Below, in pieces: positions 252-64,000 of a stretch of 64,000 nt of DNA (positions are counted from its first letter, which is position 1; every line of letters starts with the position of its first letter). The notes under the pieces were generated by a model. It made no database searches, was not told the DNA's origin, and worked only from the letters and a program-made list of their open reading frames with translations. The DNA comes from Coleophoma eucalyptorum (Eukaryota; Ascomycota; Leotiomycetes; Helotiales; Dermateaceae): positions 496,001 to 560,000 of the forward strand of contig JALRME010000004.1 of assembly GCA_026120035.1 (NCBI GenBank), given 5' to 3'. The translations under genes were made by a program, and so were the position numbers.

Positions 252-3200
252 TCAATCTATACGGGGTTTCTTGGCCTTATGTAGTATGTCTTCTCTAATT
301 TCGACTGGCCTGGGACGTTTCAGCTGCTTTAGCTCCACGGTTTTCTCAACTTCAGTCGCGCTTTTTGGGAGTTGCTGCTCTTCGGAGGACGCTTGTGCAA
401 CCACATGGGTAGTTGGAGGGTTTTCGCTGTCTAATATCATAGGCTCACTGAGTAGCCCGGTGTCCTCCAGTTCAGTTGTGCCTTCCCTGATAATTTGCTG
501 CTCTTCGAGCGGCTCTTCTTCAAGTTCAGTCGTGTCTCCTGTGACCTTTTGCTGCTCTTCTGGGGGCTCCTGTCCAACTATAGTCTTGAAAGTATTTGAA
601 GAGTGTCCACTTTGTGACCCAGTGTTCTCCAGTTCAGTCGTGCCTCCCCTGACATTTTGTTGCTCTTCTGAAAGACCCTGTCCAATTGTAGTATTACCAG
701 TGTGTGAAGATTCTTCACTGTCTAGCCCAGTGTTCTTAAGTTCAGTAATCTCTACTGTGACCTTTTTTTCTTCTGAGGGCCCCTGTCCAAGAGAGTGTTC
801 ACTGTGTGCCCCAGTGTTCCCCAGCTCAGTCGTGTCCCCTTTGAAATTTTGCTGTCCTTCCAAAGGCCCCTGTCCAATTTTAGTATTATCAGGGTGTGGA
901 GAGTGTTCACTGTTTAGCCCAATGTCCTGAAGTTCAGTTAAGCCTCTGGTGACCATTTTATGCTCTTCCAAGGGCTCCTGTGCAACTGCAACCATAGTTG
1001 AAGCGATTTCGCTGTCTACCCCAGTCATCTCGAGCTCAGTCGTGTCTCTTGTGATCTTTTGCTGCTCCCCCGAAGGCTGTCGTGCAACTAAAGGAATAAT
1101 TTCAGAATTCTCATCGATTATTGCCATAGGTTCAGTACTAGTCTGTAGGTGTACCAAATTGGAGCTGTCAGGTTTCTTCTTAGCTTTAAGTTTCCTCCTC
1201 TCTCCAATTCCGATCGGCCTACTACGATGCTTCGCCTCCTTTAGCTTCTTCTTGAGCTGTTGCCCTTCCGAAGGCACCTGCGTAACTACAGCAGTATTTG
1301 GAGAGCTTTCGCCGTCTAGTACCATGGCTTCACTGTATACCCCAGTGTCCTCAAGTTCAGTCGTGCCTCCTGGGACTTGCTGCTCTTTTGAGGGCTCCTG
1401 TGTAACTACAGCAGTATTTGGAGATTTCTCGCTGTCTAATACCATAACTTCACTGTACACCCCAGTGCTCTCAAGTTCAGTCGTGCCTCCTGGGACTTGC
1501 TGCTCTTTTGAGGGCGCTTTGGCGATTACAGCTATGTGTGGAGAGCTGTCCAAGGCCATGGTTTCACTGTGTACCTCAACGTTCGGCTCCTGTCTAGCCA
1601 TAGTCTTGGTGATATTCATAGAGTGTTCACCGTGTACCCTAGTGTTCTCAAGCTCAGTCGTGCTTCCCCTTATGTTTTGTGGCTCTTCTATAAGCTTTTT
1701 CCCGAAAGATTGTTCACTTTGTACCCCGGTGTTCTCTAGTTCAGTCGTACCTCCTGTGAAATTTTGCTGCTCTTCTGAGGGCTCCTGTCCGATTGCAACA
1801 TTACCAACGTGTAGAGAATTTTCATTGTCTAATTCAATGTTCTCAGGTCCAGTCATGCCTGTAGCAACCGTTTTATGCTCTTCCGAGAGCCCCTGTACAA
1901 CTCTAGCAGAACTTGAAGTGAATTCACCATCCATTCCGGTCATCTCAAGTCCAGTCGTGCTTCCCATGGTCGTTTGCTCTTCCAAGGGCTCTGGCCCAAG
2001 TAGAGGAATAATTTCAGAATTCTCATTGACTGTTGCCATAGGTTCGGCACTGGTCTGTAGGTGTACCAAGTTGGAGCTGTCAGGTTTCTTCTTAGCTTTA
2101 AGTTTCCTCCTCTCTCCAATTCCGATCGGCCTACTACGATGCTTCGCCTCCTTTAGCTTCTTCTTGAGCTGTTGCCCTTCCGAAGGCACCTGCGTAATTA
2201 CAACAGTATTTGGAGAGCTTTCGCTGTCTAACACCATAGCTTCACTGTATGCCCTCGTGTTCTCAAGTTCAGTCGGACTTCCTGGGCTTTGCTGCTCTTC
2301 TGTGGTCGGAACTATAGCAATACATGAAGAGTTTTCACCGTATACTCCAGTTTTATCGAGTTCAGTTGTGCCTCCTGTGGCTTCCTGCTGCTCTTTCGAG
2401 GAGATTCGTGCAACTACAGGAATATTTTGAGAGCTCTGATTGTCTGTTGCCATAGGTTCGGTACTAGAGTGTAGATCTATAGAGTGGGAGTTGTCTCCAA
2501 TTCCAATCGGCCAACTATTGCGATGCTTTACCTCATTTTCTAGCTCAATCGTGCCTCGCGAGGACCCTTCCACAATTGTAGCAATATTTGATTTGTTTTC
2601 ACTGTCTTCTCCGGTATTCTCAGGTTCAGTCCCGCTTCCTGAGACTTGCTGCTCGTTCAAGGGCGCCTGTACGACTACAGAAATATCTGGAGAGCTTTCG
2701 TTGTCTAACACCATAGATTCACTGTGTGTCCTGGTGTTATCAAGCTCAGTCATGCTTCCAGTGACTATGTTCTGCTCTCCTGAAGGCACTTGTGCGATAC
2801 TAGTCTGTAGATGTATCAAATTGGAGATGTCAGGCTTCTTCTTAGTTTTTAGTTTCTTCCTCTCTCCAATTCCGATCGGCCTCCTACGATGCTTCAGCTC
2901 CTTTCGGTTATTCTTGAGCTGTTGCCCTTCCGAAGGCACCTGTGCAACTACAGCAGTATTTGGAGAACTTTCGCTGTCCAGTACCATGGCTTCACTGTAT
3001 GCCCTAGTATTCTTAAGTCGAGCAGTGCCTTCTGTAATATTTTGCTGCTTTTCTAGTAGCTCTTGTCCAACCATAGCATTACTAGCATTTCGAGAGTGTT
3101 CACTGTTTGCCTCGGCGTGCTCAAGGTAAGCCGTGTCTCCTAGACCTTGCTGCTCTTCCGAGGGCTCTTGTGTAACTACAGCAATATATGAAGTGTTTTT

Positions 3201-7844: not shown

Positions 7845-7870
7845 AATGGAAAATCAGGTTTTGCATATGT

Positions 7871-27305: not shown

Positions 27306-27812
27306 TATTCATTCCGCTGTTGCTTGTTGCAGATCAACGACCGCTGAGACGTTAAGTGGGCAGGTAGGTACCTTCCCGTAGGTAGATAGCATTTATCAAA
27401 TCTCCAAGACTATCGTGGTCTAGATGATGGTAGTGTTGTTGTACAAGCAAGCCACGATAAGGCGGTGGCAGAATCTAGAGCGGAATAGGACTTCGCGTGA
27501 CTATAGGCGTCCCCATGCCACTACCTCCGCACCCCAAAACACTTCCGAACGTCCACACCAAACCACAGCCTCAGACAGCAGCCAGGCTACACATATGATA
27601 ACAGGGTGTCATAATGTTCAGCTGTCTTGCTTTCCTCATTTAAATACTACCTTCAACGTTCTAGGAGCTGTACACCCATCTGTCAAATAGAGGCCTGCTC
27701 AGCTTCCTCTATAACTACCTACCATCTTTGATATTTCACAAGTCGGGCACCGACCCCATCAATAGATGCCGTTGCTAACTATATACTAGCCCTAGCGCGC
27801 CGTTATGACAAG

Positions 27813-28664
27813 ATGGAGAAGCCTAACCTGCTGTACTCGTGTCCTCCCGAACTACTCCCATCACCGCTGCCTACGTTGGAGGCAATTAAAGCTTCAGAAG
27901 ATATAATCTATTCGTATACCGGTCGCGCACTTGTTCGAGTTGGATACCACTATATTGTCAAATTCGGCCTAGCTATTAACCCAATCGAGGGCGAAAACAT
28001 GCTATTTATTCAACGAAACACAAACATCTCGATTCCTTCAATCTATGCAATCTATACGCACAGCCGCGCTACTTACCTTATTATGGAGAAAATTGAAGGA
28101 CAAACACTTGAAGACGACTGGGACTTACTGAGTGAAGTACAAAAAGAAGTGATATCAGTACAACTTAAGGCTTATTGTGACGAACTACGAGCTTTACCGT
28201 CTGAAGGTTATTTTGGTAGTATAGGACGCCGTAGCTTATGCGATGCTATCTTCTGGAGTACACCTGCAGATCCTCGTATTAATGGTCCGTTCGATACCGA
28301 GAACGATCTTAATATGGCAATGGTCTCTAAATCCCTTTTCAATCATCAATCTAGAAAAGCCGAATTCTATCGCCAGGCCTTACCTGTTGCTCTTAAAGGT
28401 CATCATCCTGTATTCACCCATGGGGACCTACAGCGGAAAAATATTATTCTAAGAAAGGCAACGGAAAACAACAAAAACTTGTCTTTGGTATTGATCGATT
28501 GGGAATGCTCAGGGTGGTATCCAAGCTACTGGGAGTATACTTATGCAATATATGCATGTGGTCGTTGGGAGGACGACTGGCATGTATACGTTGGAAAGGT
28601 ATTAGATCCCTTCTATGAAGAGTATGCTTGGATGGAAATTTTGCGCATAGATTTATGGTCATAG
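27813..28664 (+). CDS. aminoglycoside phosphotransferase (APH)-like small-molecule kinase
   Basis: Single-exon frame of 283 aa. An APH/protein-kinase-like fold is clear: RVGYHYIVKFG for the nucleotide-binding strand with its Lys, YLIMEKIEGQTLEDDW for the hinge, FTHGDLQRKNIIL for the Brenner catalytic loop (HGDxxxxN), and LVLIDWECSGWYP for the Mg-binding Asp. All key residues are intact, so it may be active; fungal members have unknown substrates. The start is ATG 27813. An upstream leader (about 27690-27812) encodes SIDAVANYILALARRYDK in frame and resembles fragments at 50138-50341 and near 58560, so the ancestral gene may have started further upstream. Confidence 0.8.
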   Translation: MEKPNLLYSCPPELLPSPLPTLEAIKASEDIIYSYTGRALVRVGYHYIVKFGLAINPIEGENMLFIQRNTNISIPSIYAIYTHSRATYLIMEKIEGQTLEDDWDLLSEVQKEVISVQLKAYCDELRALPSEGYFGSIGRRSLCDAIFWSTPADPRINGPFDTENDLNMAMVSKSLFNHQSRKAEFYRQALPVALKGHHPVFTHGDLQRKNIILRKATENNKNLSLVLIDWECSGWYPSYWEYTYAIYACGRWEDDWHVYVGKVLDPFYEEYAWMEILRIDLWS

Positions 28665-28691: not shown

Positions 28692-29522
28692 TCACTTATA
28701 TATATAAGTGCCGTCATCATTTTTGTGGTAATAGAATCCAGGTCTACCCGCTTTCGGGGCCTGCCACTGCCAGTAAGAAGTTTCGGCTGCTGGTGCTTCA
28801 TATGCTGCTCCGCCTCCATACGCTGGTCCCCCTCCTCCATACGTTGTTCCTGCTCCATACGCTGCTGCTCCTCCTCCATATGCTGGTGCTCCTCCTCCAT
28901 ACGCTGGTGCTGCTCCATACGCTGGTGCTGCTCCATATGCTGGTGCTCCTCCTCCATACGCTGGTGCTGCTCCATATGCTGGTGCTCCTCCTCCATACAC
29001 TGGTGCTTGATACGTTGGTCCTGCTGCATACGCTGGTCCTCCTCCTCCATACGTTGTTCCTGCTCCGTACGCTGGTCCTCCTCCTCCATACGTTGGTGCT
29101 ACCCCTGTTGCCCGAGACTCTCCTACTGCCTGGGATGCTCCTGCTGCCGGTTGAATCACACCAGCAGCCTTTAATTCATCAATGGCTTTCGTTGTCCACT
29201 CTTGGCAACGGAATAATGGTTCTCCTGGTTTCAATCTTTTCGGGCCGTTAAATTGCTTATGAGGAGGCGGGATTCGGGAACAGATTGTATGTATCTGTTG
29301 GTATTTGGCTCTTTCAACTGTGCCTAACAACTCTTTCCCACTAAAGGTGAGAGACTTCTCTGGTATTTTGCCCCCTTTATATTCATACGTCATCCCTCTT
29401 TGTATGTCGCCTTTGACATGGTATATACAGCCTGCACCATTAGGCTCATTTTCAACAAAGATAGCCCAATGATCTCGAGCGCCGCCTGTGTAAGACAATT
29501 TCCAGACATTAAGAGAGGCCAT
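28692..29522 (-). CDS. small globular fungal domain with Gly/Ala/Tyr repeat tail
   Basis: 276 aa, single exon, start ATG 29522. The first 125 residues form a compact domain (LSYTGGARDHWAIFVENE, IYHVKGDIQRGMTYEYKGGK, FRCQEWTTKAIDEL). The H-W...C-Q-x-W pattern is reminiscent of fungal DUF6914-type, papain/NlpC-like proteins, but I cannot confirm membership. Residues about 145-245 are tandem APAYGGG/APAYGAA/TYGGGGPAYG repeats. The C-terminus (YWQWQAPKAGRPGFYYHKND) is aromatic. The repeat tail should be disordered and may be self-associating. It is convergent with the APH-like gene, only 27 bp from its stop. Confidence 0.65.
   Translation of the reverse strand: MASLNVWKLSYTGGARDHWAIFVENEPNGAGCIYHVKGDIQRGMTYEYKGGKIPEKSLTFSGKELLGTVERAKYQQIHTICSRIPPPHKQFNGPKRLKPGEPLFRCQEWTTKAIDELKAAGVIQPAAGASQAVGESRATGVAPTYGGGGPAYGAGTTYGGGGPAYAAGPTYQAPVYGGGAPAYGAAPAYGGGAPAYGAAPAYGAAPAYGGGAPAYGGGAAAYGAGTTYGGGGPAYGGGAAYEAPAAETSYWQWQAPKAGRPGFYYHKNDDGTYIYK
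28810..29095 (-). repeat. in-frame Gly/Ala/Tyr-coding tandem repeat
   Basis: The plus strand repeats tccatacgctggtgctgc / tcctcctccatacgctgg with a 15-30 nt period. It encodes the APAYGGG repeats and accounts for several leucine-rich frames on the opposite strand. Confidence 0.85.
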
Positions 29523-31002
29523 CGTCGAAAGTTGTTTAAGATACTAGATTTGCCTAGAAAGAAATGCACTCCAAGGACCTGATGGGAGAGAAAGGAGGTG
29601 GTTTATATACGTTTATTCCTTGCTGAGAATGAGTAGATTGTAGCAGGTATTTGCAAATATCCTTTGATACTTGACTTGGTTGCTTCTGGATTTGCCTGGC
29701 CCCTCTAGTCTACGCAAGTTCACATCCGGTGTCTCCGTCTGGTCAATTGTCGCCGTCCTACTCCCAGTTGCTTACGGAGGCGCATTTTTTTCTTGTTTCT
29801 GTAATCATATTCAATGGACTGTATTGACTCACTTCAAGGTGGAAGCGTGCCAAGCGCGTGCCAATTACATATAACGCCCGGTGCATAGGGAAGAAGATTA
29901 AAAGCCTAGGCTTTGACAACCAATATTGATCCTAAGACTTTCCTAAAATGTATCCTTGTAATAGCCACCAACCTGCTTGTTATTGGATTGATAGGGGTTA
30001 GATGATCGTATTTAAGTAGATAATCGATTATGCTCCAGCACGCACTGGGAGAAGCCCTGGCACCATGTCAATATTCTATACGAGAAGGCACTCTCAAGGA
30101 TGCAATGAGGTAGCTACGAACAACTAAAACCTCAGACCGACTGCTGTATCATCTATGATTAGCGTACAAGAGTTTGGATAGGGTAAGCACTAATGGCTAT
30201 AGCGTACCAGAAGTTTTCTTTTACGTTTAGAAAATCGAGACTCTTGAGAAGAACGTGGACAGTACAGCAGAGCAGGGCGTAGACGACGCATAAGACCCTG
30301 GCAAGGTAGCACACCTATAACAAGGATATTCAAATTTCACTAATAGATCAAGAGAGAGTGCCCAGATTCTGAAAAATTGGTAGAATAGCACCGAATAAGA
30401 CAGAAAAGTAATAGAGTGGTTTCTGCCTATTATCCTTAGTTCATTGACTCAATAGTCGTCTAGCCAAAGGACAAGACTTCTACTTAAGCAGAATAGTAGG
30501 AGGCTACACATTAAGAAAATTCGAAAATCAGTCGATACAAACTGAGCTTTTGGTGTGTTGAAATACTGAGAAAATCTAGTGATAAGGAGATTCTCAATAC
30601 ATGTTCGTTTGCTGACAAGCCAACCACTTCCTCCTCTCCAAGCTCCATACAAACAAGACTTTGTGCCTAGGATAATTTCCAAGAAGCTGCAAGGCGTCTA
30701 ACTATTAACATCTCTCCTTCCAATTTTAGCGCCTGATTCGACGCCTTTGGATGCTGCCTTGTGCCCGTCGATTTTCTCGCGAACAAGGTCTGATTATGAG
30801 TGGGTCTCGCAACCCAGGTCTAACGCCGATAACCCATTGGCATATAGTGGAAACTTTCTACGAAGCAACCAGCCCTAGCTCGCGAACGCCACAAACATAT
30901 GCGACTGCAACCACGAATGAGGCTAGATCTATCTTTCTACGTTCTCATCTTTGCTTAGAGCAAAAACCTAATTTTTCAAAAAATAAATAAATCATACTTA
31001 TC
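29523..31002. other. gene-poor interval
   Basis: Roughly 1.5 kb with no frame above 80 aa that looks like protein and no repeat recognised. It is AT-rich and stop-rich. Confidence 0.4.
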
Positions 31003-31430: not shown

Positions 31431-31846
31431 CGTTCATCTCTTAGTCTTGGCATCCATCGCTCGGCTAATATTCATGCCTGAGGCATAAAGTTTGGCATCG
31501 GGGCTTCCGTCAGAACCGGCACGATTCGAGCCCCGTCTGCCTTTCTGCTACAGAGATATGTCGATCAACCCCTGCCCTTTGCCAGTCATCTCTTCTGCAC
31601 CTTCGGCGGCGCCTAGTCGACACACATGACAGGCTCGTAACGGGTCGCAGCTCGGCACGGCCCCGGAGCGCTTGTCTCAACCACTCAATTCTATGGATGA
31701 CAGCAGACCCCAGCCCCGGCAAAATAAATGACCCCACCCGTGCTTTGATCTGGAACGACAATTCGACTAGACTGGCATTTCTAGCAAAGACGCGCCTTAA
31801 GACTTCACTATCCCCTTCCTTGCTCTCTTGCTCAATCATTGCGTCG

Positions 31847-33417
31847 ATGCATAACAGTCTCTCGCCTCTTAGTCGAAAAAGACAGCACGCTGAAGCGGGC
31901 CTGTCATCCGACGATTTGTCTTCCCAAGCTGCCAAACGACTTAAGCCGATAGAACTTCATTCTGCTCAATTTTACGACTCTCTTTCCAGAATCTGGCTTA
32001 GTCGACGAGCATTAAAGGAACTCGATAGACGAACAAGTCGAGTAAACTCTGAACGACCAGAACCCCTGTCTAAGGACGCGGCTTCGGAGCAGAGATTGAA
32101 GCAAATAAGAAGATTTGCAAGGCACGGAGGTCCAGATCTTTCTGATATTCGTGGGGTAATAACAACCAACTAAAGAATATGTAGTATAATTCTAAATGGG
32201 TTTAGTTTACACCGCTGGCAAACGTCAAGCCTAGTCACGTTTCAGCAATGAGCTCCGTATCTTCTCCGAACAGTGGTGGAACACAATCTACAGCACCGAC
32301 GAGTACGTCTTCTCAAAGTAGAAGATCCTCCGCCTACGACAAAAATTTTGAGGAACATCTGCTTCGCTCCAAAATATACCCTACAGAGTATGACTATTCG
32401 AATGGATGCAATCCGGAACCAGAAAATCTAGAAGAACTTTGTTCAAGACTAGAGCAGCCAAGACCATCTCTCTCGCCTTCACGCTTTTCGAAATCAGCCT
32501 TTCAAGACTTTAGGCAAAAGAACAGGCGAGTAGTCTCAGAAGGCAAGGTGATGAGTACTATCATTCCTTTGATATCCGGTACTACCGATATTACGAATGA
32601 AGAGAACTTGCAGTTTACACGACTTGCTCCGTTTACTAATAACATAGTGGATGCTAAACCAGACTTCTACGATGGTGCTCGCCCGGAGGATGTCGATATA
32701 CGTGTTCGAGAAGACCTAGGAGCTTTCATTGTACCTACAGGCCATACTGCCGCTCCTATAGTTCCCAACTTTTTCCTTGAGGCTAAAGCTCCACAAGGAG
32801 GTTCTGATGTAGCAAGGAGACAGGCTTGCTATAACGGAGCGATTGCTGCTCGTGGTATGCACCAGCTACAGTCATATCAACAAGAGGCTAGATACGATAA
32901 TAAGGCCTATGCTATCACGTCCACATACCATGATGGAAATCTTAGAATATATACCACTCATCCTACGGCGGGCCCCGAAAACTCAACAGAATACCATATG
33001 AACCAGGTCTGTGGCTGGGATTTGACTAACAATATCAATAGCTTCCGACAAGGTGCAACAGCCTTTCGGAATGCTAGAGACTGGGCACAGAAAGAGCGGG
33101 ATGCTCTTATCTTGGCTGCTAATAAGAAGGCGAAAACATCGAACAGAGAGCTGTCTCTCGACGAGCTCGATGACCTCGATGACCTCGACGAGCTCGCCGA
33201 GCCTATACGTACGCAGAAAGCAGATACACAATTAACGCCAGCCAGAAATCACTCGAATACGACGAGCACAGGAGATTCAGAGACCTCGTCTGATGAGCTA
33301 TCTCTTGAGATAACTAGAACACCTAAGATCTCTTACAAGCGCCCGTATGGGGCATCAAAGTTGGCTAAGGCTAAAGCTCTACGACCCGATTCTAGTAAGA
33401 AGCGTTTGAGAAAATAA
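31847..33417 (+). CDS. DUF7924-type protein with PD-(D/E)xK-like motif
   Basis: Exons 31847-32155 and 32206-33417 join to 506 aa, with an intron at 32156-32205 (GTAATA, branch TTCTAAAT, GTTTAG). The N-terminal part has the features I associate with this fungal family: basic RKRQHAE start, LSRRALKELDRRT, and RRFARHGGPDLSDIRG ending at the splice site. The second part holds KPDFYDG followed, about 45 residues on, by PNFFLEAKAPQG, and then ACYNGAIAARGMHQLQSY. The D...ExK spacing resembles PD-(D/E)xK nuclease folds, so a nuclease-like role is plausible but inferred. The C-terminus has an acidic DELDDLDDLDEL stretch and a basic KKRLRK tail. A mutated copy of its 5' end lies inverted at 46765-47222. 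Confidence 0.65.
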
Positions 33418-38168: not shown

Positions 38169-38488
38169 TCGTCAACAGGTAGTTTGGCAGGCAGGTGCTT
38201 GGATCAAATCAAGGGAGAGAAAGTGGTGGGTAAAGAGAGTTAGGGAGTTAGTAATGTATACAAATTTCGCAAGTTGGCATAGTAACATGAATTTGTATAT
38301 ACTTATATGACAGACAAGAACCACAACTTCACACTCTACCAGCAACAGTTACAACCACTCTACTTGATTTCCTGAATCTACTAAACGATATCTCATAGCA
38401 CTTTTCCCCGGTCTAGAAAGATTCGATCTTTTTGTATGTTTCCTGTTATCTCTCTTCGAGTGTAGTGAATAACTTCCTTAACTCAGCT

Positions 38489-39919
38489 ATGGATCTACAA
38501 ACAATTATGAAGGGCTTACGGCTCTTGAGCAATGATTCGACTGACCAAGTTCTCGATTTCTTCATGCCTGGTTATGCCTCGCCAACCCGGAAATATGTAC
38601 GACCTACACAGGTACAAAAGACAGTAGCACTCTGTGCTATCATCTGGGGAGGCTTGCAAGTTCTGCCAGTTGTATCTATGTTTGCTTCGAGCATGATAGA
38701 TACTTACTGCAGGTCTTCGATTATAATCGAAGACTCAGAGGACATATACTGGTGTGTTATTCGATGGCTATCTAATCAACACGATATCGCCAATTCAAGA
38801 TTGCTAACAGCAACCGATCATACTTTGGAAGAGGAGGAAAGAAACGAAGATGGAAATACAACTACTACCTTACCGAATTTTTCCGAACAGAAAATGAAGA
38901 CAGTAACATATGAACCATCCTTTGGAGAATATACGCTCTATTATAAGGGCGTTTATTTCAAATTCGAACGATCACTCGACACCAATGGCGACGTACGTAG
39001 AGAAAGCCTCAAAATAACCTGCTTCAGACGCTCTACAAGGCCTATTCAAACTTTGATTACTGATTCTCTATTGTTTTGCTCTCAAGGCCAAGATATCATA
39101 ACCAAAACCTTCCGCCCATCACCAAAAAATCAGCGTCATTTCAAACCTTGGACTGAAGCCTCTAGCCGTCGTAGCCGGTCGCTGGATACTGTTGTACTCG
39201 ACCCAGATCTGAAGGAAAGTTTCAAAGACGACATGGCTAAATTTCTTCGATCCGAGACCTATAAGTGGTATATCAAAACAGGTATCCCTTATAGACGCGG
39301 ATATCTGTTTTCTGGGCCTCCTGGAACGGGAAAAACTTCATGTATATATGCTTTTGCTGGCCTGTTTGGCCTTAGCATATATGTGGTCAACATCCACTCC
39401 TCGGATTTGTCCGAGAATGACTTTGCTCAACTCTTTGAAGATCTCCCGGCCCGTTGTATTGTTCTGATCGAAGATGCCGATGCTCACGGAACTTTACGAG
39501 AACGAAAATCACTAAAAATACGACCAGAGAGCCATTCTACTCATGATACTGAGATCTCGTTATCTGTCATTCTCAATGCATTTGACGGCATTGCATCTCA
39601 TGTGGGGCATGTACTTGTCATCACCACAAATCATGCTGAGGATTTAGATGAAGCTCTTACTCGACCTGGGCGTGTAGATATGCATATTCAGTTCAAAAAG
39701 TTGAAGAAATCTCAAGGAAGGGAGTTTTTTGAGCGTATCTGTGGAAATGACTCGGATTGTATCGAAAGTTTCTTAGAGATCATGCCCGACGATGAAATAA
39801 CTGCAGCCGAGTTGCAAGGCTTCCTTGTCCCTTGTGGAGAAAATCCACAAAAAGCGGTCAAAGAATGGCCTGCCTGGCTGAAGAAGAGGAAAGTTATGTT
39901 AGGGGCAGTGAATTGTTGA
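38489..39919 (+). CDS. BCS1-like AAA ATPase
   Basis: Single exon, 476 aa, start ATG 38489. The N-terminal 60 residues include a hydrophobic segment (KTVALCAIIWGGLQVLPVVSMFA) as in the mitochondrial membrane anchor of BCS1. A BCS1_N-like region with RSLDTVVLDPDLKESFKDDM and YRRGYLFSGPPGTGKTS (Walker A near residue 280) follows. Walker B-like CIVLIEDADA, sensor-1 VITTNHAEDLD and arginine finger RPGRVDMHI are all present. The length matches fungal BCS1-like proteins. BCS1 assembles the Rieske protein in respiratory complex III, but fungi carry many divergent paralogues in accessory regions, and this is likely one of them. Confidence 0.8.
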   Translation: MDLQTIMKGLRLLSNDSTDQVLDFFMPGYASPTRKYVRPTQVQKTVALCAIIWGGLQVLPVVSMFASSMIDTYCRSSIIIEDSEDIYWCVIRWLSNQHDIANSRLLTATDHTLEEEERNEDGNTTTTLPNFSEQKMKTVTYEPSFGEYTLYYKGVYFKFERSLDTNGDVRRESLKITCFRRSTRPIQTLITDSLLFCSQGQDIITKTFRPSPKNQRHFKPWTEASSRRSRSLDTVVLDPDLKESFKDDMAKFLRSETYKWYIKTGIPYRRGYLFSGPPGTGKTSCIYAFAGLFGLSIYVVNIHSSDLSENDFAQLFEDLPARCIVLIEDADAHGTLRERKSLKIRPESHSTHDTEISLSVILNAFDGIASHVGHVLVITTNHAEDLDEALTRPGRVDMHIQFKKLKKSQGREFFERICGNDSDCIESFLEIMPDDEITAAELQGFLVPCGENPQKAVKEWPAWLKKRKVMLGAVNC

Positions 39920-44130: not shown

Positions 44131-44171
44131 TTCCATTTCCCAGATCTCGGCACCAACACTGCTTATAAAGT

Positions 44172-45083
44172 ATGACTTCGGAATCTCACTCTACGTTCTT
44201 GATCCCATCATCTGGGAGTTTTCTGTACGTGCATTCATTCTACAAAACGATTATCCTAGATAATATGTCCTTACCTCTAACTGCTGCAAACATAGCAGGT
44301 CTATTTTCCGAAGAAATCACTTCACGTTATAACGATAAGATTTTTGAATCGCAATCTGAGGTGCAAGGTCTAAACATACTTCCATATGAAATTCGTCGAA
44401 TTATATGGCGCGCTTCCTTCCCAGGACCAAGAATCATTCAAGTCAACTTTTGGTATCCAAGAGCAGATGGCCAAAAAGATCTCAAGGCCAAACATTCTAT
44501 CAGTGGTATCAAGCCGCCTGTGGCACTGCATGTCTGTCGTGAATCTCGCGAGCAGGCCCTTGCTTTCTATAAACCACTGTTCCAGCGGTACTTGGCGGCA
44601 TCGACACCTCGAAACCCAATCTACTTCTACCCAGAGAATGACATCATTTATTTATCACGACCTGAACTCGAAATTTATTCTACCTATGCTTTGTTTCAGC
44701 TGTACGAAGACATTGGAACGATCCAGACTCTTGCGCTCGACTACACACCTTACATAGCCTTCTGGCCACGGGATGGAACACTTCCTGACGTCGATCTGTC
44801 TGTATATACGAGTCTGAAAAGGGTTATACTTACTATGGGACGTGACTGGGAACCCCGCCGGTCCTGGTGTTGTGCTGGTGTTGCTTTTATCAAGTTGCCA
44901 GGTTACGAGAGCGCGAAAGAGTTCTGTCATCAACGCTTTTGGCACTCCGGTATTGTCGAAACATGGGATCATGCAATATTCCAGCTTCGAAGGCGACTAA
45001 CGGAGGAACGTATCTATACATCGGATTTTAGTCCAGTTCTTGAGCTTATGAGACTGGTCAAAACTAGCCACAGTCCGTGCTGA
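44172..45083 (+). CDS. 2EXR domain protein
   Basis: Single exon, 303 aa from ATG 44172; ATG 44265 is an equally possible start giving 272 aa. The 2EXR signature is clear: LPYEIRRIIWRASFPGPRIIQV near residue 72, then PPVALHVCRESREQAL and NPIYFYPENDIIYLS. This is a very common Pezizomycotina family of unknown function whose short motif recalls F-box-like regions. The C-terminal part is rich in Arg and Trp. Confidence 0.75.
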   Translation: MTSESHSTFLIPSSGSFLYVHSFYKTIILDNMSLPLTAANIAGLFSEEITSRYNDKIFESQSEVQGLNILPYEIRRIIWRASFPGPRIIQVNFWYPRADGQKDLKAKHSISGIKPPVALHVCRESREQALAFYKPLFQRYLAASTPRNPIYFYPENDIIYLSRPELEIYSTYALFQLYEDIGTIQTLALDYTPYIAFWPRDGTLPDVDLSVYTSLKRVILTMGRDWEPRRSWCCAGVAFIKLPGYESAKEFCHQRFWHSGIVETWDHAIFQLRRRLTEERIYTSDFSPVLELMRLVKTSHSPC

Positions 45084-46743: not shown

Positions 46744-46764
46744 TATTTGCCTCTATCTACGTAA

Positions 46765-47222
46765 GACGGGCTTTGGTCGTTCAGAATTTACTCGACTTGT
46801 TTATCTATCGAGTTCCTTCAATACGTATCGATTGAGCCAGACTCTAGAGAAAGAATCGTAAAATTAAGCAGAATGAAGTTCTATCGGCTTAAGTCATTTG
46901 GTAGCTTAGGAAGATAAATCGTCAGATAACAGGCCCGCTTTAGCGTACTGTCTTTTTCGACTAGAGGTAAGAGAGTGTTATACATCGATGTAGTGATTGA
47001 GCAGAAGAGCAAGGAAGGGGATAGGGAAGTCTTAAGGCGCGTCTTTGCTAGAAATGCCAGTCTCGTCGAATTGTCGCTCGTGCAAGCACGGGTAGGGTCA
47101 TCTATTTGCCGGGGCTCGGGTCTGCTGACATCCATAGAATTGAGTGGTTGAGACAAGCGCTCCGGGGCCGTGCCGTGATGCGACCCGTTACGAGCCTATC
47201 ATGTGTCGACTAGGCGCCGACC
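46765..47222 (-). pseudogene. mutated 5' copy of the DUF7924 gene (RIP-like)
   Basis: Read on the minus strand, this segment matches 31603-32077, the promoter, 5' UTR and first exon of the DUF7924 gene, and it ends inside that exon. Most differences are C-to-T or G-to-A, often at CpA/TpG (gctcaattt to gcttaattt creates a stop; acgaaca to ataaaca removes an Arg codon). Small indels near the start codon shift the frame. It is a non-functional partial duplicate, oppositely oriented, 15 kb from its source. Confidence 0.75.
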
Positions 47223-47266
47223 ACAGGTGCTTGAACCGCGCCAGTTTTGACAGAAGCTCTGAAGTC

Positions 47267-50341: not shown

Positions 50342-50406
50342 CTATTGACAGGATGGGAGAACAACTCGTGGAACAGTGAAGGTGGCAAGGCTGTGATCTG
50401 GTGGCA

Positions 50407-50615
50407 CATAGGATTCCTCGCCACACATGGATGGACGCTGCATTTTTGTTGAAATAGAATAGTGTGTAGAATTGGTTAAAACGGGAGTTGAGGTGTCACC
50501 TGGTATTGGTAACAAGGTGTATAGAATTGAGGCGTAAAGGGGGACGTTGCTATAGCATTGTCTGTTGCAAGTATCACTATGTCAGGTGCATGGGAAATGA
50601 TTGATAGAAACTATC
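50407..50615 (+). repeat. dispersed repeat of about 210 bp, copy 1
   Basis: Nearly identical to 61221-61432 in the same orientation, from taggattcctcgccacacatgg-like to gatagaaactatct. Differences are scattered single bases. No open frame, terminal inverted repeat or obvious target duplication is seen. It is probably a short non-autonomous element or solo terminal repeat. Confidence 0.85.
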
Positions 50616-50781
50616 TAACGTGCATCCGTGCGTGCCGCAAGACCCTGTGTGCCGGAACAACTTTGTGGTTCAGAAGGTCTAGACTTCCACCACGTAGATA
50701 AAAAAGACTATCATTTGTTTCGTATGTTTACTTAATTATATCTCTACAAGGATTGGACTTGCAGTTAGAAAATATTATGAT

Positions 50782-51363: not shown

Positions 51364-54300
51364 CTAATCAGCCCCCTTCTCGGGCAATAGCTCGATAGTC
51401 TGGACAGAGCCTGCCGCTGCCGCTGCCTGGAGCGCGTTGCCGTGTTGTCCGCCTTGAGCATTAACGTTGGCGCCCTTCTTATACAACAGCTGAACCACGC
51501 TCTCGTGGCCTCTAGCTGACGCTGCCTGGAGCGCGTTGTCGTATTGTCCGCCTTGAGCATCAACGTCGGCGCCCCTCTGAAGCAATAACTTGACTACCTG
51601 CTCGTGGCCTATAGCTGCCGCCGCCTGCAGCGCGTTGCCGTATTGTCCGCCTTGAGCATCAACATCGGCGCCCTCCTGAAGCAATAACTTGACTACCTGC
51701 TCGTGGCCTATAGCTGCCGCCGCCTGCAGCGCGCTGCCGTATTGTCCGCCTTGAGCATTAACGTTGGCGCCCTTCTTATACAACAGCTGAACCACGCTCT
51801 CGTGGCCTCTAGCTGACGCTGCCTGGAGCGCGTTGCCGTATTGTCCGCCTTGAGCATCAACGTCGGCGCCCCTCTGAAGCAATAACTTGACTAGCTGCTC
51901 GTGGCCTCTAGCTGCCGCCGCCTGGAGCGCGTTGCCGTATTGTCCGCCTTGAGCATTAACGTCGGCGCCTATTTCAAGAATCACTTGCACTGTCGCCAAG
52001 TGTCCATTCTCGGCAGCAGCACGAAGAGCGAACATGCCACTTGCTCCATCGCTTCCATTTATATCTGTGCGGAGTTGTATAAGCAGTTTCACTACCTCTG
52101 CATAGCCGCTTCTTGCTGCTGCGATCAGGGATTTGGTTCTGAACTGTATTGGTTTCATGTCCAATTCGCCTGCTCTTAATTGTTGCCCATCCAAAAGCTC
52201 TATCCAAGACTCGAAGAAACAAAAAAGAACCGTGTCCTTCTCCAAAATTTGGAGAAATGATGACCAATCCTCATTGACGAGTGACCCTGCTCCTAGTGAT
52301 TTCAGGTGGCGTGGGAGTGAAGAAACCACATATTCAAGCAACGAGTAATCTCTTAACCACTCCACAAATTCATCATAGTCAGTCTGGTTCCAGTTGTCGA
52401 TCGCTTGTGAACCTGCTCGGAAAGATAAAAGACGAAGATAACGAATGCTAACTGACGAGATCTCCGTGTCACCTCTTACTACATCGATGTCGAAAGGAGC
52501 TGCGGCTTTGTCTTTCCGTAGCAAGAAATCTCGAGCAGTCTGGTGAAGAAGCTGGACCACTGACCTTCTGATTTCAAGGAGGCTGCCACAGCAGGCTCTG
52601 ATACGAAGATTAATCCCGTCGGTCCGGTTTCGACTTAAAAAATCGGTGTCTGGACTGAAAGGCTCTGAAATCGAAGGGATTGCGATCGCGTCTCGAAACT
52701 CCTCAGTTGTCAGTGGTCTTTGTGCAAAAGTGGCCCAGTTGAGCATCTTCACTCCTTTCTTCTTCTTGATGTCTTCCTTTTCAGAGTCTTTAAATTGATA
52801 CTTTGGTCGATCGAACAAACGACGGATAATAAGGCGATACACATCTTCTAGCTCGGTGGGGAGCGTATTGAGACATGTTTCCAATTCTACCTGGCTGCAC
52901 CCCTCCAAAACAAGCTCTTTCAGCTCTTTGAAAACCAATGCCACCCATAGGAAAACGCCATCTGCATTCTGTATCATGTAACTCTTTATGAACCCCAGGT
53001 CAAACGAAGGCGAATCAGGGATGTCCTTGATTTTTTGAATACCAGAGATAATAGCGATCTCAATATCTTTTTGGTTTCTCTCTTGCAGGACGATAGGATA
53101 GCAGTAACTTAATCGCTCATCTATTTCTTCTGGTGGCAATGGTCTAGTCGCAATCAAAGCTTTGATGGTACACCCTGATGTCGATGAGCACAGCTGCATC
53201 AAAAGCTGGAGGATCTCCGGTCTTCCCTGCTCGTCTGACTCATCCATGGCGTCGATGAGAATGTATATCTTCTCGCATAACTTGAAGGATCCTAAGGAGG
53301 CGAAAATTTTCCGCAAATCATGCCACTCCCAAGGAAGCTGATAGCCATCTGATTGTCGGGCCCTGAAGGTATCTCGGAATAGTGAGAAAAGCCTGTCGTC
53401 TTGACTCAACAGTTGGTAAAGTAGCGATTGAAGCATTAGCCTGTGGCTGGTTTCGGTCTTGCCCCCTCTGAATGAGTAAAAAAAGTCTGCGACCAAGATA
53501 GTCTTCCTTGCTATTGCAGCAATGTTCTTTGTCTTGTTTTCGGGGACGCCGTGTTGTGCCTTCAGTGAATTGGAAATAAACTTGGCTAAGGTCGATTTAC
53601 CACTTCCAGGTTTGCCCCTGATTAGCAGCAACCCAGAATTGTGGCTGGAAGTCCAACGTTTATATCCAGCGTCGTACTTGAGCCACTCGCCAGTCTTTTC
53701 GTGCGCCTGCTCGACGAGGTCTCTACGAGCATTGAGCTCGTCAAACTTCAGTGCCTGAAGGCATTCTATAGTTGAGTGAGCAACATCTGAACTGTCTCAT
53801 CAAGTACATTCACTCACGTTGCCTTTCCTTATCTCTTTCTACGGTCAAAACACCAGTGAGAGCCTTCTTGATATCGTCGTAAGGCCTCGCAGTGATGAAT
53901 ATTTTGAAGCCGCGAACTCCTCTGGAGGCTATTTCAATTTGCAGGCGGAGAAGGTTTTTGCAGAAAGCGTGTCTCGCTACCTCCGTTCCAAGTTCGTCAA
54001 GTGCGTCTATAATCAAGGTTGTTGGACATGTGGGTACGCTCAAAATCGAGACGAGAAGAATGTTCCATAGCTCATTGAGGTGCCATGGAAACGGGAAGGC
54101 TTGGGTAGGTTGGCGCGCCAGTTTTGGTACTGGGCATTGCTGAAGCACGAGCTCCAAGCGCTCCCGATTGCTATGCAAAAGCTGGTAAATAATTGCGCTC
54201 AATATTTGAGCGCAATGGTTCGGCTCCTTGTGGTATCTACAGAAGACCACCGCGATATCTTCATTAGTGGCAAATGTATGATTTTGCTTTAAGCTGTCCC

Positions 54301-56446: not shown

Positions 56447-56560
56447 AAGAGGGGTAAAGAGGAGAGAAGGAAGCAGAGAGAGGTGAGATAGGTGAGAGAG
56501 GTGAGAGAGAAGAGAGAAGAAGAGGAGCAGGAGGCGAAAGAGAAAGAGGCAAGAGAAAGG
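56447..56560 (+). repeat. purine (GA)-rich tract
   Basis: About 110 bp of almost pure purine (gagagaggtgagag...), upstream of the NLR start. It makes a Ser/Leu-rich antisense frame that is not a gene. Confidence 0.8.
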
Positions 56561-56860
56561 TCCAAGCTGGTTCTCGGGTCGACTCTAGCTACCATGGTTC
56601 CCAGTTTGTTTGCTGAATAGGATTTCTGATTCCTTTTTATACACTTCATAATCAGTGACTTTCCTCTCGACAACCTCAGCAGAACCTTGACACCAATACT
56701 GAGAGAGAATTTTCTCAGCCTTAGAAGACAGATAGGAAATTTTAGGACAGATATGGTCTTCTACAAGAGAAAATATAGCATTTGTAGATGTGAGACAACG
56801 CTAAAACCATACTCCGTCGAACTTACAACTTTTATACATAATACTCGCCAGCACAGGCAT

Positions 56861-57850: not shown

Positions 57851-58880
57851 GGGCTGGCTGCCACTTAGCAGTATGCTTGGAGATTAAGCATGCAATGATC
57901 TGGCTGATGCGAAACGAGGAAGTTGCTGGCGTGAAGGCGACATTGGATACAAGCTGACAACGTCTTGCATTACGATTTTCGTGCCTGGTAAGGCATCAAA
58001 GCCATTACTAAGCTGATTGTGGCGCACCACCATGCCAGGGAATGTTGGCCTTCATGCTTGAGGCTTCATAAATGAAATTATGGCGTAAATATTCCGGGGT
58101 ACGCGGGGCTATATAAAATCTTTTCTCGCCTTGATCCGAGGTACCGAACTGCGTGGCGATCTTACATGAATTTACACGCCACCGCAGCCATAAGGCTGAG
58201 GACGATCTCCCGTACAAGTATGAGGTCTTGGAGCTTCCATACAACTAATACATATATATTACACATGATAAGATGCTAGTGGTAAAGCTACAGTAGAAGA
58301 ATTCCGTTACACTATAAAAAGACACTCTCTATAAACCAGACGCGAGAGCAACAATACAAATATGATTCCCAATAAGAGGGGTCTAGGATGTCCGGGAGTA
58401 GTTATAATATATAATTATTAAGACATTTTAGATTTTTTAAAATGTGCAGATATTTTTGGATATCTAAAGTCAAAGTACCTGTGATTTTTCCCGGCATACA
58501 GGGTTTTCCGGCACGCAGGGATAGACGTTATAAAGGTTAGGGTTAGGATATAATTAGCAATGGTATCTATGGACAGAGTTATGCCTTAAGCCGTATTACC
58601 TTAGTTATGGTGCTATTGTTCAGAGACCCTTGAGAAATTGATGATCTAAATGATGATATTGTATACACATGAGCTTGCCATCAGCCGAGGACCTTCCTTG
58701 TCTCTGCCATTTCTGCACCCCTGTATGTACCCATGAAGTACATTTGTACTGTCATTATATAATCGTAAAAAGCATAGATTTATCAGAAAAGGAACTGTAA
58801 GGGGATGTATCAACTGCTTTAGGGCCTTGTGCAAAAGGTGTATGTACTCCATTCTAAGCTCTCTTCTCCATCTATCAATC
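57851..58880. other. intergenic with repeat fragments
   Basis: Mostly featureless AT-rich sequence. At about 58500-58575 the plus strand carries ggcatacagggttttccggcacgc and tataattagcaatggtatctatgg, which resemble sequences near 50235-50265 and 50630-50660. They are therefore fragments of a shared dispersed element. Confidence 0.45.
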
Positions 58881-59976
58881 TTACGCAAAAGACTTAGTCT
58901 GCTCTTCACTCCAGTCCCAGAACTGCTTAGCGACACCAGAACCACCCTCCTTCTCCGACTTCGCTGAAGCAGCAATGTCTTTACGTAGAGGTCCAAATCG
59001 TCCCCAAGGTATGATCCAAGAGCCTGTCTTCTCAGGCGTGACTTCAGGTGATAGACCGCAAAAAAGCTCGGTATAAGCGCCGTTGATGGGAGGGTGGAAT
59101 GTCCATTTCGATACGGCGTGTTGCCATCCTGGCAGGTGTCTCTGTAGTGGTGTGTTTAGATTGCCTGGATTGCATGCCTGTAGTAGCCCATGTTAGTGCT
59201 GCTTCCTAATGTTTGCTGGACCGGGCTGGACGTACCACGCTAACGATCTCGGGATACTGTTTGGCGTACTCCATGGCATGCAAAATGTTTCCAGCTTTGC
59301 TGACGCCATATTTATGCCAGACATCCTTGTCATTCTTGTAATTAAGGTTATCCATGTCCACTCCTCCTTTAGGCGATGCGAGTTCTGCCACTGATGAAGA
59401 TGTCCAGACTACTCTTACGCTGCCTGGCGGACTTGCCTTAGCTGTCTTGACCAGCAACGGCGTTAGCAATTTGGTGAACAGGAAAGGTGCCAGATTGTTT
59501 GTCCCAAGCTGCAGTTCGTAACCCTGCGCCGTTTTCGACCCCTGTGGAGGCACCATCACGCCGGCGTTGTTCCATAGCACATCTAATTTATCTTCTTTAT
59601 TGAGGAACTCATCCGCAGATTTCTTGATGGTGGTAAGGTCATTGAGGTCGAGGTGTAGGAACACGAGTGAGCCTTTGGATTCTGGGTGTAAGGTTTTGAT
59701 GTTTGAGATTGCGGTTTCGGCTTTCGATGAGGACCGTGCTGCGATGTAGACTTTGGCGTTGTGAAAGTAGAGGATTGATGCTAGTTGTTCGCCAACACCA
59801 CTGGATGCGCCGGTGACGATAAATATCTGTGAATGATTAACATGTAATTGATAATAGGGTGTGGTAAGGAATAGGTTGCGCTCGAGGACGAAACTTACTT
59901 TGCCCGATTGATCAGGTAAATTCTTCTCTGTAAACTTCGCCTTTGGCGGGAACATTTGACTGTATTGATTGCCCAT
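58881..59976 (-). CDS. short-chain dehydrogenase/reductase (SDR)
   Basis: Exons 59976-59899, 59826-59236 and 59177-58881 join to 321 aa, with introns 59898-59827 (72 nt) and 59235-59178 (58 nt, branch CACTAACATG). A classical Rossmann SDR: TGASSGVG for the cofactor glycine motif, HLDLNDL, NNAG, active-site Ser in WTSSSVAEL and Tyr/Lys in YGVSKAGN. After the last splice it continues ACNPGNLNTPLQ, as usual for this subgroup. The N-terminus (MGNQYSQMFPPKAKFTEKNLPDQSGK) matches fungal SDRs acting on unknown small substrates. All catalytic residues are intact. Confidence 0.88.
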
Positions 59977-61220
59977 GATTGCGCTGAATTGGGGTCGTTC
60001 CGTAGAGCTTCAAGTCCTATTACGGCCGAAGCTGTGTTTCAATTTCCCTTCCTTGATGTGTTAAGGCGACGCTGTTTATATAGCTCGAGCATCATGCGGT
60101 AATTGCCGTCATAAGTTGCGCCGTGACCCGAGTCGTTCTATCTGCGGACAAGAGATTCATCCGTGCTCCGATTCGATATCTGGCAGCTCTCATATGGGAG
60201 CGTTCAAGCAGTTTAGTGTGGGTTTGGGTCGGAGATAAGTCTTTGAAAGGGCGGAAAGTCTCCGTTTCGCACGTAAACGCATGCTTTGGAACATCCCTTG
60301 GCAGGAGGTCGTCATAGAATACTATCGTAATATTGGTTCTTTTAGCTACCTATTGTGGCATGTAGCTTAAGGATGCCGAATGGGACATATATGAGGCTTT
60401 TTGATGAAGTTTTAACTGAACTCGCCGTGCTGGTTCCGCGAGGATAGAACTCAGAACAGCTGCGCCCATGCGTTTCTTGATCGCTTTGTACAGAGCACAA
60501 AGGCCGTAAGATTTGCCGCAAATGACCAACAGGCCCCTTCGAGGAAAGAAGAGATGTCCAAAAATTATACTAGGCCTTTGCCAAAGCCACGCCAGCTATC
60601 TGCCTTAACGCTTTATCCGGCTTATAGACCACACCCGCATATGCTTTGCCAACATTTATGGGCCAGTGTATCATGCCGGAGGCGAAAGAACTTAAAGTTC
60701 CAAGGACGGGATTAGGTCCGCTTAAATTGGACACCATGAAATGTTCGTCAACTGCGTATTCATACGGCCGATATAGTGAAAGTTCTTCTACTTATCAATT
60801 TTTCCGCTCAGCAGCGAAGATCCAACTCAAGGGCAACAATGAGCAATTCGAGTCGAATAATTTCAAGCTGATGGCTTCCCATGGGCGCTATAATGATATT
60901 ATTGCTTAAATCTAGATTCATTTTATCCTTTAGTCGTGGAACGATCCCTCATTCAAAGACTTTCTGGCTCTAGTGTGATGCTCTCGACATTCTTGAGATG
61001 ACATCTCATCAGTGGTTGAACCATGTGTCACTGTTTGTGCTTGTGCTGCTGCCATCTTGTTCAAGAGATTCTTACCCCTCTTCCCTCCAGGCTGGATTCC
61101 AAGTTACCATTGTCTCCAAGTGCACTCGATGTTGACTGCCTCTCTTCTCGGGATCGTCCTAGGACAACGTCTTTCGAGGGAGAGACTTAAGACCCTTGAA
61201 TGATAAATCCATCTAAGCAC
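59977..61220. other. intergenic, no gene supported
   Basis: SDR promoter and spacer. An 87-aa plus frame at 60646-60909 has no family or splice support. Confidence 0.35.
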
Positions 61221-61432
61221 GTAGGAATTCTTGCCACACATGGATGGACGCTGCACTTTTGTTGAAATAGAATAGTATGTAGAATTGGTTAAAAATGGGA
61301 GTTGAGGTGTCACCTGGTATTGGTAACAAGGTGTATAGAATTGAGGCGTAAAGGGGGACGTTGCTATAGCGTTGTCTGTTGCAAGTATCACTATGCCAGG
61401 TGCATGGGAAATGATTGATAGAAACTATCTAT
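61221..61432 (+). repeat. dispersed repeat of about 210 bp, copy 2
   Basis: Same orientation as the copy at 50407-50615, ending at gatagaaactatct. It lies 22 bp beyond the stop codon of the recombinase gene, so it may coincide with its 3' UTR. Confidence 0.85.
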
Positions 61433-61454
61433 AAAGGTTTAAAATGAAAATAAT

Positions 61455-64000
61455 TTATACGTGAACCCAGACATGTTTTCCCAAACGCTTATCGTACTTC
61501 CTTTCTGCTACCACTTCCGCAGGACACAGTTTGTCGAGTTCCTCTATCGTGGGTGGACGGCGGTGAAATACAGAGAAGTCGGATTGGACTACCTTCTTGC
61601 TCGTTGGTTTCTTCTTATAAGGTTTGATACCTCCTACTTTCTCTCTAGGACGCGTGACGGTAGTATGTTTTAGGCTGGGAGTGTTATCCGTAGATACTGG
61701 TCCAGGAGTAGAAGTCCAAATGACTTCTGAGCAACTACCTAGCAAGTTAGTCTGTTTATTCTCAGCACCGGCTGGTAAAGTAGGTCGATTCTTTTTTAAC
61801 TTGTCTGCCATATCTGATTCCGAAGCCTTTCTTTTGATAGTCCTGGTCTTGAGTTTTGTTCCGCCGACTCTGTATTCTACGGCATTAGAGCAGAGTCTCG
61901 TGAGCCTCGTCACGAGTTTAGAGAGGCTTATGTCGTCTAGGCCTTCTGGTAGATGCTCTTGAGGATATAGTGCCTCGAAAATTGGAGTTCGTGCAATAAC
62001 CCCTGGGGGTAGATCCTCTTGGGGCGACTCTTTCAAATCTGTTAATTCGGCTAGTTCGTCATCTTTAGTGGTTGTAGATGCTGGTTTGTATTGGGATTCT
62101 TCTTTTATCTTGTTTTCAAACCAATCCCGCCGTACTTCTTTAAGAACATGCCTTTTACGTCGCTCTACATAGTTGTAGATTGCCTTACAGGTGTCCCGAA
62201 GACGGATTGCAATAGGCTCAACGTCAGCTAGTATAGAGTGATCTGGAAGCCTAGATTTTAATTTCTGAAGGAGATTTTCAACGTCGCCCTTTGCGTTAAA
62301 TCTTGTGCGCCCAAACTGAATCCAGCTCTTTACGTGAACGGGGTTGCTGTTGTTTCCCCCCGAAGGAATGGTATCGGTATCTGGCGTAGACATCGAAGCC
62401 GGGCCGAATTTGATGCCAACTCCAGCTGCTTGCCGCATCCATTCGTCGATTTCAGCCTCTAGTTTGTTTCTCTTGTATAACAACTCCTGGTATCCGGCCT
62501 CCTCGCGAATTTTCGCAATCTCCTCCAGGCTTATTCGGACAGGCGCTCCAACTCTCCTAGAAAGACCCATGCTTCGAAGCTTGTCGATGTGGTCTTGTCG
62601 CGCGACCCCAGATGTGTATAGCCCTTGCAAATCAATTCCAATATGGGAGCTAAGGTATTTCTGGAAGGTGGCAGACCTAGTGTGCCCAAGCTGCTTTGTA
62701 AGTTCAGCCTCTGTAGCGATCACTACACATGCTATTAGAGATGATACACTGCTAGCTACTTAGGTATACTTACTATGAAGAACATTAGACGAACCTCTTC
62801 TACAATCGTAAGGTGTAATTAAGTTCTTATAGCCTGCTCGCAGGCTAAGTCCTCGTAGACTCGTAGCTGAGGAGCCTGAAGACCATGCAAGAGTTGGTGA
62901 TATGCTGCTACATGACTGGCTTTCAACCATTCGCAACACCGGGACTTTAGCTATAGCATCGTTGAAGGGAACTTGCAAGTCGCCAACTCCGTACTGAAGT
63001 CGATGTCGTAATAAGGCTTCGGATGACTCGAAATATTTCCACGCATTATCGGCATTTGCTAAAGCAAGGAAATCAATGACTGGGCATAAGACGGGACAGT
63101 CTCTTTGCTCTCGTATTGTAATATCAACACTAGACCTGTTAGCAGGAGATATAAGATATTCTGAACAACACATACTATTGACCTTTAGAATCTCTCCGCC
63201 CTTTCATAAGGTTGAACCTTACGACCAATGTTATTAGTGGGCGTGCGTTATCATCAGCATCCGGCTCACGCAAAAGCATTACAGTACAGTCCTAGTAGGT
63301 GTTATTAAAGTAGAACACGTAGAGAATGATGTCTTACTTCGTAGCAGAGAGCTTCATTCGAATTGCGGTAAGCTTCGGAAACAGTGACTGCTCCGGGACG
63401 AGTAGCAGTATATACAAGCAGCTTCAAGTAAAAAGCAATTTGTAGCCGATACCTCTCGTTAGGATATATATGTGCATCATGTCTCCACAAGTGATCGAGT
63501 AGACGCCCTACATCTTCAATCGTTGCAAGTCGTTTTTGGCGCGGGTTGTCTTCGAGCCCCAACTTCGTTTTCAGAGTTTCTTTGATATACTATAGAGACG
63601 GTCAGTATTTGATAGTCCAAAGCAGCTATAGTAGGAAGCTTACCTCTCGGAGCTCTGCACAAGTCTCTTCGGATAGCTTGTGTTCAGACCGCTCATTGTT
63701 GGCCTTTTTCATGATGTAGACGTAGTGTATCATGCTCTCGAGACCAGGGCGGGGACTATTCATTCCTCTGTGGGTTTGTGCGTACCAGAGAAAAAAGGCC
63801 CGAAGTTGTGTAGCTGTTAGATGTTCACCTTTTGACTTAGTGAATATTGCGTGGTCTTTGTAAGCCTCTTTAAATCTGGTCCAAGTGTTCCAGAGTCTAT
63901 CGCGCTGATTCAGAGTTGGCCGGCTCCCCTTTCTAATTGCAGGATCGGTACCCTCAGAGGTAGAGGACTCTAAGAGGTCAAACTCTGCATCCAGATCAAT
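61455..64000 (-). CDS. DUF3435 tyrosine recombinase, Starship captain-like (5' partial)
   Basis: Five exons are visible and the 5' end lies beyond the right edge: 64000-63644, 63589-63338, 63291-63176, 63129-62774, 62722-61455 (782 aa). Introns are 63643-63590, 63337-63292, 63175-63130 and 62773-62723; the third uses a second AG after the GCTAAC branch. The DUF3435 domain is complete from WNTWTRFKEAYKDHAIF onward. Candidate catalytic residues are Arg in YTATRPGAV, Arg in YDCRRGSSN, His in QLGHTRSATF and Tyr in FQKYLSSHIG, the R...R-H...Y set of tyrosine recombinases. Downstream, RSMGLSRRVGAPV and a coiled coil lead into a 300-residue Lys/Ser-rich tail. Captains of Starships belong to this family and sit at the element's 5' end reading inward, here leftward. 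No frameshift is seen, so it may be active. Confidence 0.85.

Follow-up and report, generated by a model that had tools for sequence, protein, structure and literature searches.

We analysed a 64,000-nucleotide stretch of the genome of the fungus Coleophoma eucalyptorum (GenBank assembly GCA_026120035.1, contig JALRME010000004.1, here C46, positions 496001-560000; hereafter the window), which probably holds the greater part of a Starship giant transposon of 71.5 kb, E1, inserted site-specifically into a tRNA-Pro(TGG) gene by the mechanism proposed below. That E1 is a Starship, as the original prediction for the window had it, is well supported by its captain recombinase, the orientation of this gene, an edge 455 bp from its ATG, direct repeats, terminal inverted repeats and accessory gene families. 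The use of a tRNA gene as attachment site is strongly supported by sequence from two captain families, and regeneration of that gene by tRNA parts borne on the element is likely. Including both copies of a 9-mer that marks its ends, E1 runs from window position -7049 to 64490 (C46:488951-560490; negative numbers and those above 64000 are positions outside the window, to its left or right). The window covers all of it except ~7.05 kb on the left and 0.5 kb on the right, and the 71.5 kb between the 9-mers lie inside the Starship size range of ~20-700 kb. The region analysed around the window was C46:396001-660000 (264 kb), the genome searched comprises 101 contigs (45.26 Mb), and all comparisons between loci were made inside this one assembly.

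An intact captain at the 5' edge

The window had been predicted to contain a DUF3435 tyrosine recombinase with intact candidate catalytic residues, reading inward from the right, whose start lay outside it together with both ends of the element. The gene, the captain of E1, is indeed found on the minus strand at window 64027-61455, with its ATG 27 bp beyond the right edge, and the ends of E1 lie at -7049 and 64482-64490. Its spliced model has five exons (64027-63644, 63589-63338, 63291-63176, 63129-62774 and 62722-61455) separated by four GT-AG introns of 46-54 nt; the last splice acceptor was set by alignment to a Leptodontidium homologue. The product has 791 residues and no stops, and matches PF11917 with E=3.3e-41, compared with only E=1.7e-5 for the open reading frame (ORF) of the last exon alone. 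We found four homologues, one in Leptodontidium (39%), two in Botrytis (32-33%) and one in Geoglossum (28%). Six candidate active-site residues, R192, A195, K242, Y358, R361 and Y392 (R-A-K-Y-R-Y), are identical in all five aligned sequences (Y392 carries the number 395 in that alignment). Their spacings, 3/50/166/3/31 (R to A, R to K, R to Y, Y to R, R to Y), are almost the same as the 3/48/164/3/31 of the active site proposed for Sanctuary, R260/A263/K308/Y424/R427/Y458 (PMC12506042). The captain is the first gene at the 5' edge of the element and reads inward. A 215-bp direct repeat, 95% identical, is present at window 50404-50617 and 61217-61431, 10.8 kb apart, one copy lying immediately downstream of the captain.

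The ends of E1 in tRNA-Pro(TGG) sequence

Extending the contig in both directions located both ends, 71.5 kb apart. Used as a query against the genome, the right flank revealed a direct repeat, 87% identical between C46:560482-561931 and C46:488951-490426, which begins within a tRNA-Pro(TGG) gene. The left end holds the whole gene (window -7062 to -6960, C46:488938-489040; 31-nt intron; Rfam score 47.4 bits), and the left repeat copy, window -7049 to -5574, consists of this tRNA from nucleotide 14 onward plus a segment that we call D. At the captain end, only nucleotides 14-103 of tRNA-Pro are present, preceded by unrelated sequence and followed by the second copy of the segment, D' (right repeat copy, window 64482-65931). 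The 9-mer AGTGGTAGA lies within tRNA-Pro(TGG) at both ends, at window -7049 and, 455 bp upstream of the captain ATG, at the captain-end junction (64482-64490), so that the 5' end falls just right of the window, as anticipated. The exact length of the direct repeat is blurred, AGTGGTAGA being continued by tRNA and D homology. On both strands of the 264 kb, AGTGGTAGA occurs eight times: in the complete tRNA-Pro genes at 424222 and 617281, at 488951, 560482 and 566940, and at three unrelated sites left of 420 kb. The terminal inverted repeats of E1 measure 15 bp with 13 positions matching, and one arm is the anticodon arm of the tRNA; at the captain-end junction the arms CCCCAAAGCACGAAT and ATTCTTGCTTTGGGT flank AAGTGGTAGA. 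Inverted arms of this quality are found at nine distinct loci in the 264 kb, the E1 junction included. The AGTGGTAGA direct repeat and these arms correspond to the short target-site duplication and terminal repeats for which a search just upstream of the captain ATG had been suggested.

Further, the captain-end sequence is found again at C46:566845-566951 (window 70845-70951), 84% identical through CACGAATA-AGTGGTAGA and diverged thereafter. We read C46:560482-566948 as a short (~6.5-kb) tandem remnant, E2, with this second captain-end terminus as its putative right end. The right D copy shows the greater change of the kind left by repeat-induced point mutation (RIP), with 101 C>T/G>A differences versus 26 in the reverse sense, 69 of the 101 at CpA/TpG. 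A 288-bp repeat resembling a long terminal repeat (LTR) starts exactly where this copy ends (C46:561932-562219); it has no clear target duplication and at least ~50 matching rows in a genome search.

From these sequences we infer the following mechanism. The captain would cut and rejoin DNA at AGTGGTAGA, nucleotides 14-22 of the tRNA in its D-arm, and would recognise the 15-bp arm ATTCTTGCTTTGGGT (tRNA nucleotides 23-37). Since this arm is inverted at the captain end as CCCCAAAGCACGAAT, the junction would form a loxP- or att-like site with two inverted arms and a ~10-bp spacer. Because the 3' end of E1 starts with the 3' part of the tRNA, insertion would leave a complete tRNA-Pro there and a 3' fragment at the captain end; with the complete gene on the left and nucleotide 14 onward at the captain end, it appears to be the 3' end of E1 that restores the gene. 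Excision across the direct repeats would restore one intact tRNA, should E1 be mobile, and repeated insertions may have built the tandem array in which E1 stands beside E2.

The search for tRNA-Pro(TGG) found four complete genes, at C46:488938, C46:424209, C46:617268 and C58:117379, with introns of 31, 16, 16 and 23 nt, respectively, the longest being the one at the 3' end of E1. In the Rfam tRNA census of the genome, 63 of 1762 candidates were scored. The first 0.25-0.35 kb of D is also present behind the genes at C46:617268 (77%) and C58:117379 (76%), and is absent behind that at C46:424209. In our reading, D forms the 3' terminus of the element family to which E1 belongs. To the right of C46:617268 there is a ferric-reductase relic (C46:624446-624739, 67% at the amino acid level) and a captain-end homologue (C46:628055-628163, 76%) in the orientation of E1, and C46:617268-628830 is read as a decayed, partly rearranged relative of E1. 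Another relic of the family is probably represented by DUF3723 pieces and a captain fragment, 83% identical, at C48:107517-108975 and C48:167162-169214, ~60 kb apart. Finally, a 3' piece of tRNA-Pro at C46:572622-572657 may be that of the host's original gene, with weak support from its flank: the score of the flank at 572658 against that at 424297 was reached by 2 of 500 shuffles, D scored equally well against 424297 (1 of 300), and homology of the two flanks is only suggestive.

A second captain family beside tRNA-Ser(AGA)

A second captain family, on contigs C9 and C64, appears to use tRNA-Ser(AGA) and to bear a tRNA half at the captain end. The C9 captain, whose start was placed with homologues at about position 2790 of locus L030, has a complete tRNA-Ser(AGA) gene (C9:3892-4002) ~390 bp away, the two standing head to head in an arrangement like that of E1. 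The C64 captain is broken; at a distance of ~510 bp it has the initial 31 nt of tRNA-Ser(AGA) (C64:7877-7907; 31 of 31 identical). The homology between C9 and C64 (74-81% by block) includes these 31 nucleotides and ends exactly there. At C27:123106, a complete tRNA-Ser gene abuts a third copy of this end, with no captain in the 5.4 kb examined. A genome-wide search with the 31-mer, allowing two mismatches, returned six sites, five complete genes and the C64 half, which is the only isolated half in the genome; the reversed-pattern control returned none. Captain-end sequence was not found upstream of the other tRNA-Ser(AGA) genes (C27:235k, C24 and C11): none of their upstream flanks scored against the three captain-type ends above the best of 100 shuffles, whereas those three ends score 74-140 among themselves. 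The pair C27:123k/C24 equals that best shuffle. The element on C9 continues beyond the end of its contig, and the tRNA-Ser family is known from its captain end alone; that end seems to carry the 5' half of the tRNA. The C64 half, together with E2, gives indirect support to a tRNA part borne on the element.

At the captain loci, ARAGORN and Rfam detected complete tRNAs and no fragments; fragments were sought by BLAST against a library of 37 tRNAs plus the two of interest, many tRNA types not being included; the fragments reported here are among the matches listed for loci L001-L038 at E<=1. Upstream sequence was readable at six loci (C46, C9, C64, C38, C83 and C81), which make up the count that follows; four relic loci (C48, C90, C19 and C46:628 kb), truncated or unclear, stand outside it. 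A tRNA sequence is found at the edge in three of the six, or in two of four by lineage, C9/C64 and C38/C83 being pairs. At C38, C83 and C81, the best tRNA match listed with this incomplete library was 16 nt of tRNA-Val at C83 (E=0.52). The C38 and C83 captains serve as negatives because they have no tRNA match; a stretch of 66 bp that the two have in common, located 340-400 bp upstream, matches neither tRNA nor 5S sequence. We also considered 5S rDNA as the target of the C38, C83 and C81 captains and rejected it: a typed probe was unconvincing (two 15-nt matches at C81, E=0.52) and Rfam gave none.

Cargo genes of E1

Four types of accessory gene recurrent in Starships, named in PMC12506042 as DUF3723, ferric reductase (FRE), patatin-like phospholipase (PLP) and NLR, are all present in E1, the patatin weakly. 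The DUF3723 and NLR genes expected in the window are both there. The former, on the minus strand at ~7667-255, matches PF12520 (E=5.5e-55) over three stop-free stretches. Its C-terminal part (window 345-3193) consists of degenerate tandem repeats and has long open frames on the opposite strand. The NLR (54559-51364, minus strand), identified through Pfam, comprises two adjoining ORFs, each with an NPHP3_N match, and combines NPHP3_N/NACHT with ankyrin repeats. Its ankyrin part (51416-51969) is built of 99-bp repeats, with a 297-bp period at 96% matches, and fast-evolving fungal NLRs carry such repeats. The predicted patatin is also present: a diverged patatin-like gene at ~12211-9027 (minus strand) has the motifs GGGVRG, NSTG and DGG in order, as judged by eye, with weak profile matches (Pfam 0.014, below the Pfam cut-off; PDB CapV-type phospholipase 0.0022), and a genome search with PF01734 did not list it. 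The cargo also continues left past position 1, as suspected, where a ferric reductase is encoded on the minus strand just outside the window (C46:493171-494551, window -2829 to -1449), with the left end of E1 at -7049.

Pfam further identified an APH-like kinase (27732-28664, plus strand), DUF6540 (28692-29543, minus), DUF7924 (32206-33417, plus), a BCS1-like AAA ATPase (38417-39919, plus), 2EXR (44169-45083, plus) and a short-chain dehydrogenase (59206-60009, minus). Ten more ORFs of the window had no Pfam match at 0.01. Window 31597-32065 and 46768-47230 form a 470-bp inverted repeat, 88% identical. To the left of E1, C46:456001-468000 is an AT-rich block (GC 0.37, TpA/ApT ~1.4-1.6) of RIP-like composition.

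Weighing the proposed tRNA attachment site

Several observations weigh against E1 being a tRNA-targeting element. No tRNA was seen, with our incomplete library, at three of the six readable captain loci, and a complete junction is found in just one captain of the first family. Non-tRNA sequence follows the second terminus at 566940. The captain-end homologue at 628 kb stops ~20 bp before the terminus, and the captain-like relics there (C46:628149-628829) lie on the plus strand, the reverse of the orientation expected if this were simply a remnant of E1. A structure prediction for the Leptodontidium captain homologue from four sequences had a mean pLDDT (predicted local distance difference test) of 41.9 and was not used. 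Finally, D might be an old native flank: it lies behind three of the four complete tRNA-Pro(TGG) genes, and one of these, at 617268, has a native-looking 16-nt intron that differs by a single base from the intron of the gene at 424209, which has no D.

This last point bears on two other histories. E1 could be a Starship with an incidental tRNA, its true left end elsewhere, if tRNA-Pro and 1.4 kb of its flank had been copied in an old segmental duplication; D is long for an attachment site and resembles the flanks of two more tRNA-Pro genes. We regard this as unlikely, since the right copy breaks off within the tRNA at the very point where the sequence repeated at another terminus starts, inverted arms are present at the junction, and a tRNA is also found at the end of the second captain family. 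The distribution of D would equally suit an insertion without repair, in which E1 hit the second of two pre-existing tandem tRNA-Pro genes with D flanks. Such an event predicts a displaced 22-nt 5' piece at the left end of E1, and no 5' piece of tRNA-Pro was found outside complete genes in the 264 kb or the genome, where a heavily mutated copy could escape; insertion without repair is thus disfavoured and, in our view, quite improbable. Relic captains, repeats of LTR type and AT-rich blocks of RIP-like composition, some close by and some in other parts of the genome, might suggest that the window is a rearranged accessory region holding an immobile relic of a DUF3435 gene. This is hard to credit for an intact edge captain with a captain-type active site, accessory families and defined termini.

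Integration of E1 in tRNA-Pro(TGG) being our preferred reading, we lean towards a wider one: a class of Starships would use nuclear tRNA genes as attachment sites, the element's own terminus supplying the 3' or 5' part so that the gene is kept complete. At least two captain lineages would do so, with different tRNAs and opposite ends, and tandem elements would build up at their sites much as they do in the tRNA islands of prokaryotes. Attachment to tRNA genes would bear on two open questions, the site choice of captains and the tolerance of 70-kb insertions. If true, it would provide a specific site at which recombination by a captain can be tested; the complete tRNA gene would explain why the insertion is tolerated; some fungal tRNA genes would be part transposon; and further Starships should be sought beside tRNA genes.

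Comparison with known systems

In its general architecture E1 resembles Sanctuary (PMC12506042) and the Starships of Aspergillus fumigatus (PMC12153272), in which the captain also comes first and reads inward; the edge is ~350 bp away in Sanctuary and 455 bp in E1. The R-A-K-Y-R-Y active site, direct and terminal inverted repeats and DUF3723, FRE, PLP and NLR genes are likewise shared with known Starships. Unlike these, E1 appears to sit in a tRNA gene, with tRNA sequence in its terminus and the gene left complete. Targeting of 5S rDNA is known for Starships from Osiris of A. fumigatus (PMC12153272), which is like E1, as we read it, in its captain-directed insertion into an RNA gene transcribed by RNA polymerase III and in its longer direct repeat; the prediction for Osiris is that it leaves the 5S gene in fragments, whereas at E1 a complete tRNA gene remains. 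The main texts of PMC12289983 and PMC12153272 contain no mention of tRNA, and PMC13373834, judged by passage, and PMC12691639, judged by title, both of which combine terms for Starships, tRNA and tyrosine recombinases, have no bearing on tRNA-targeting Starships. We found no tRNA-targeting Starship in the literature searched, which did not extend to the main Starship survey and the 2022 Starship paper, so that a prior mention is possible.

Most tRNA-integrating elements of bacteria and archaea use a tyrosine recombinase, and these integrators regenerate the target tRNA. Use of tRNA genes is common there, typically of the 3'-distal part and more rarely of the 5'-distal part, and intron-bearing tRNAs, such as that at the E1 site, are also among the targets (PMC6563490). 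E1 and the tRNA-Ser family together seem to show both kinds of use, 3'- and 5'-distal. If our reading is correct, E1 represents a eukaryotic counterpart to bacterial and archaeal tRNA islands: it would work like the prokaryotic integrators without being one of them, since its host is a eukaryote, its recombinase a captain and its cargo that of a giant fungal element.

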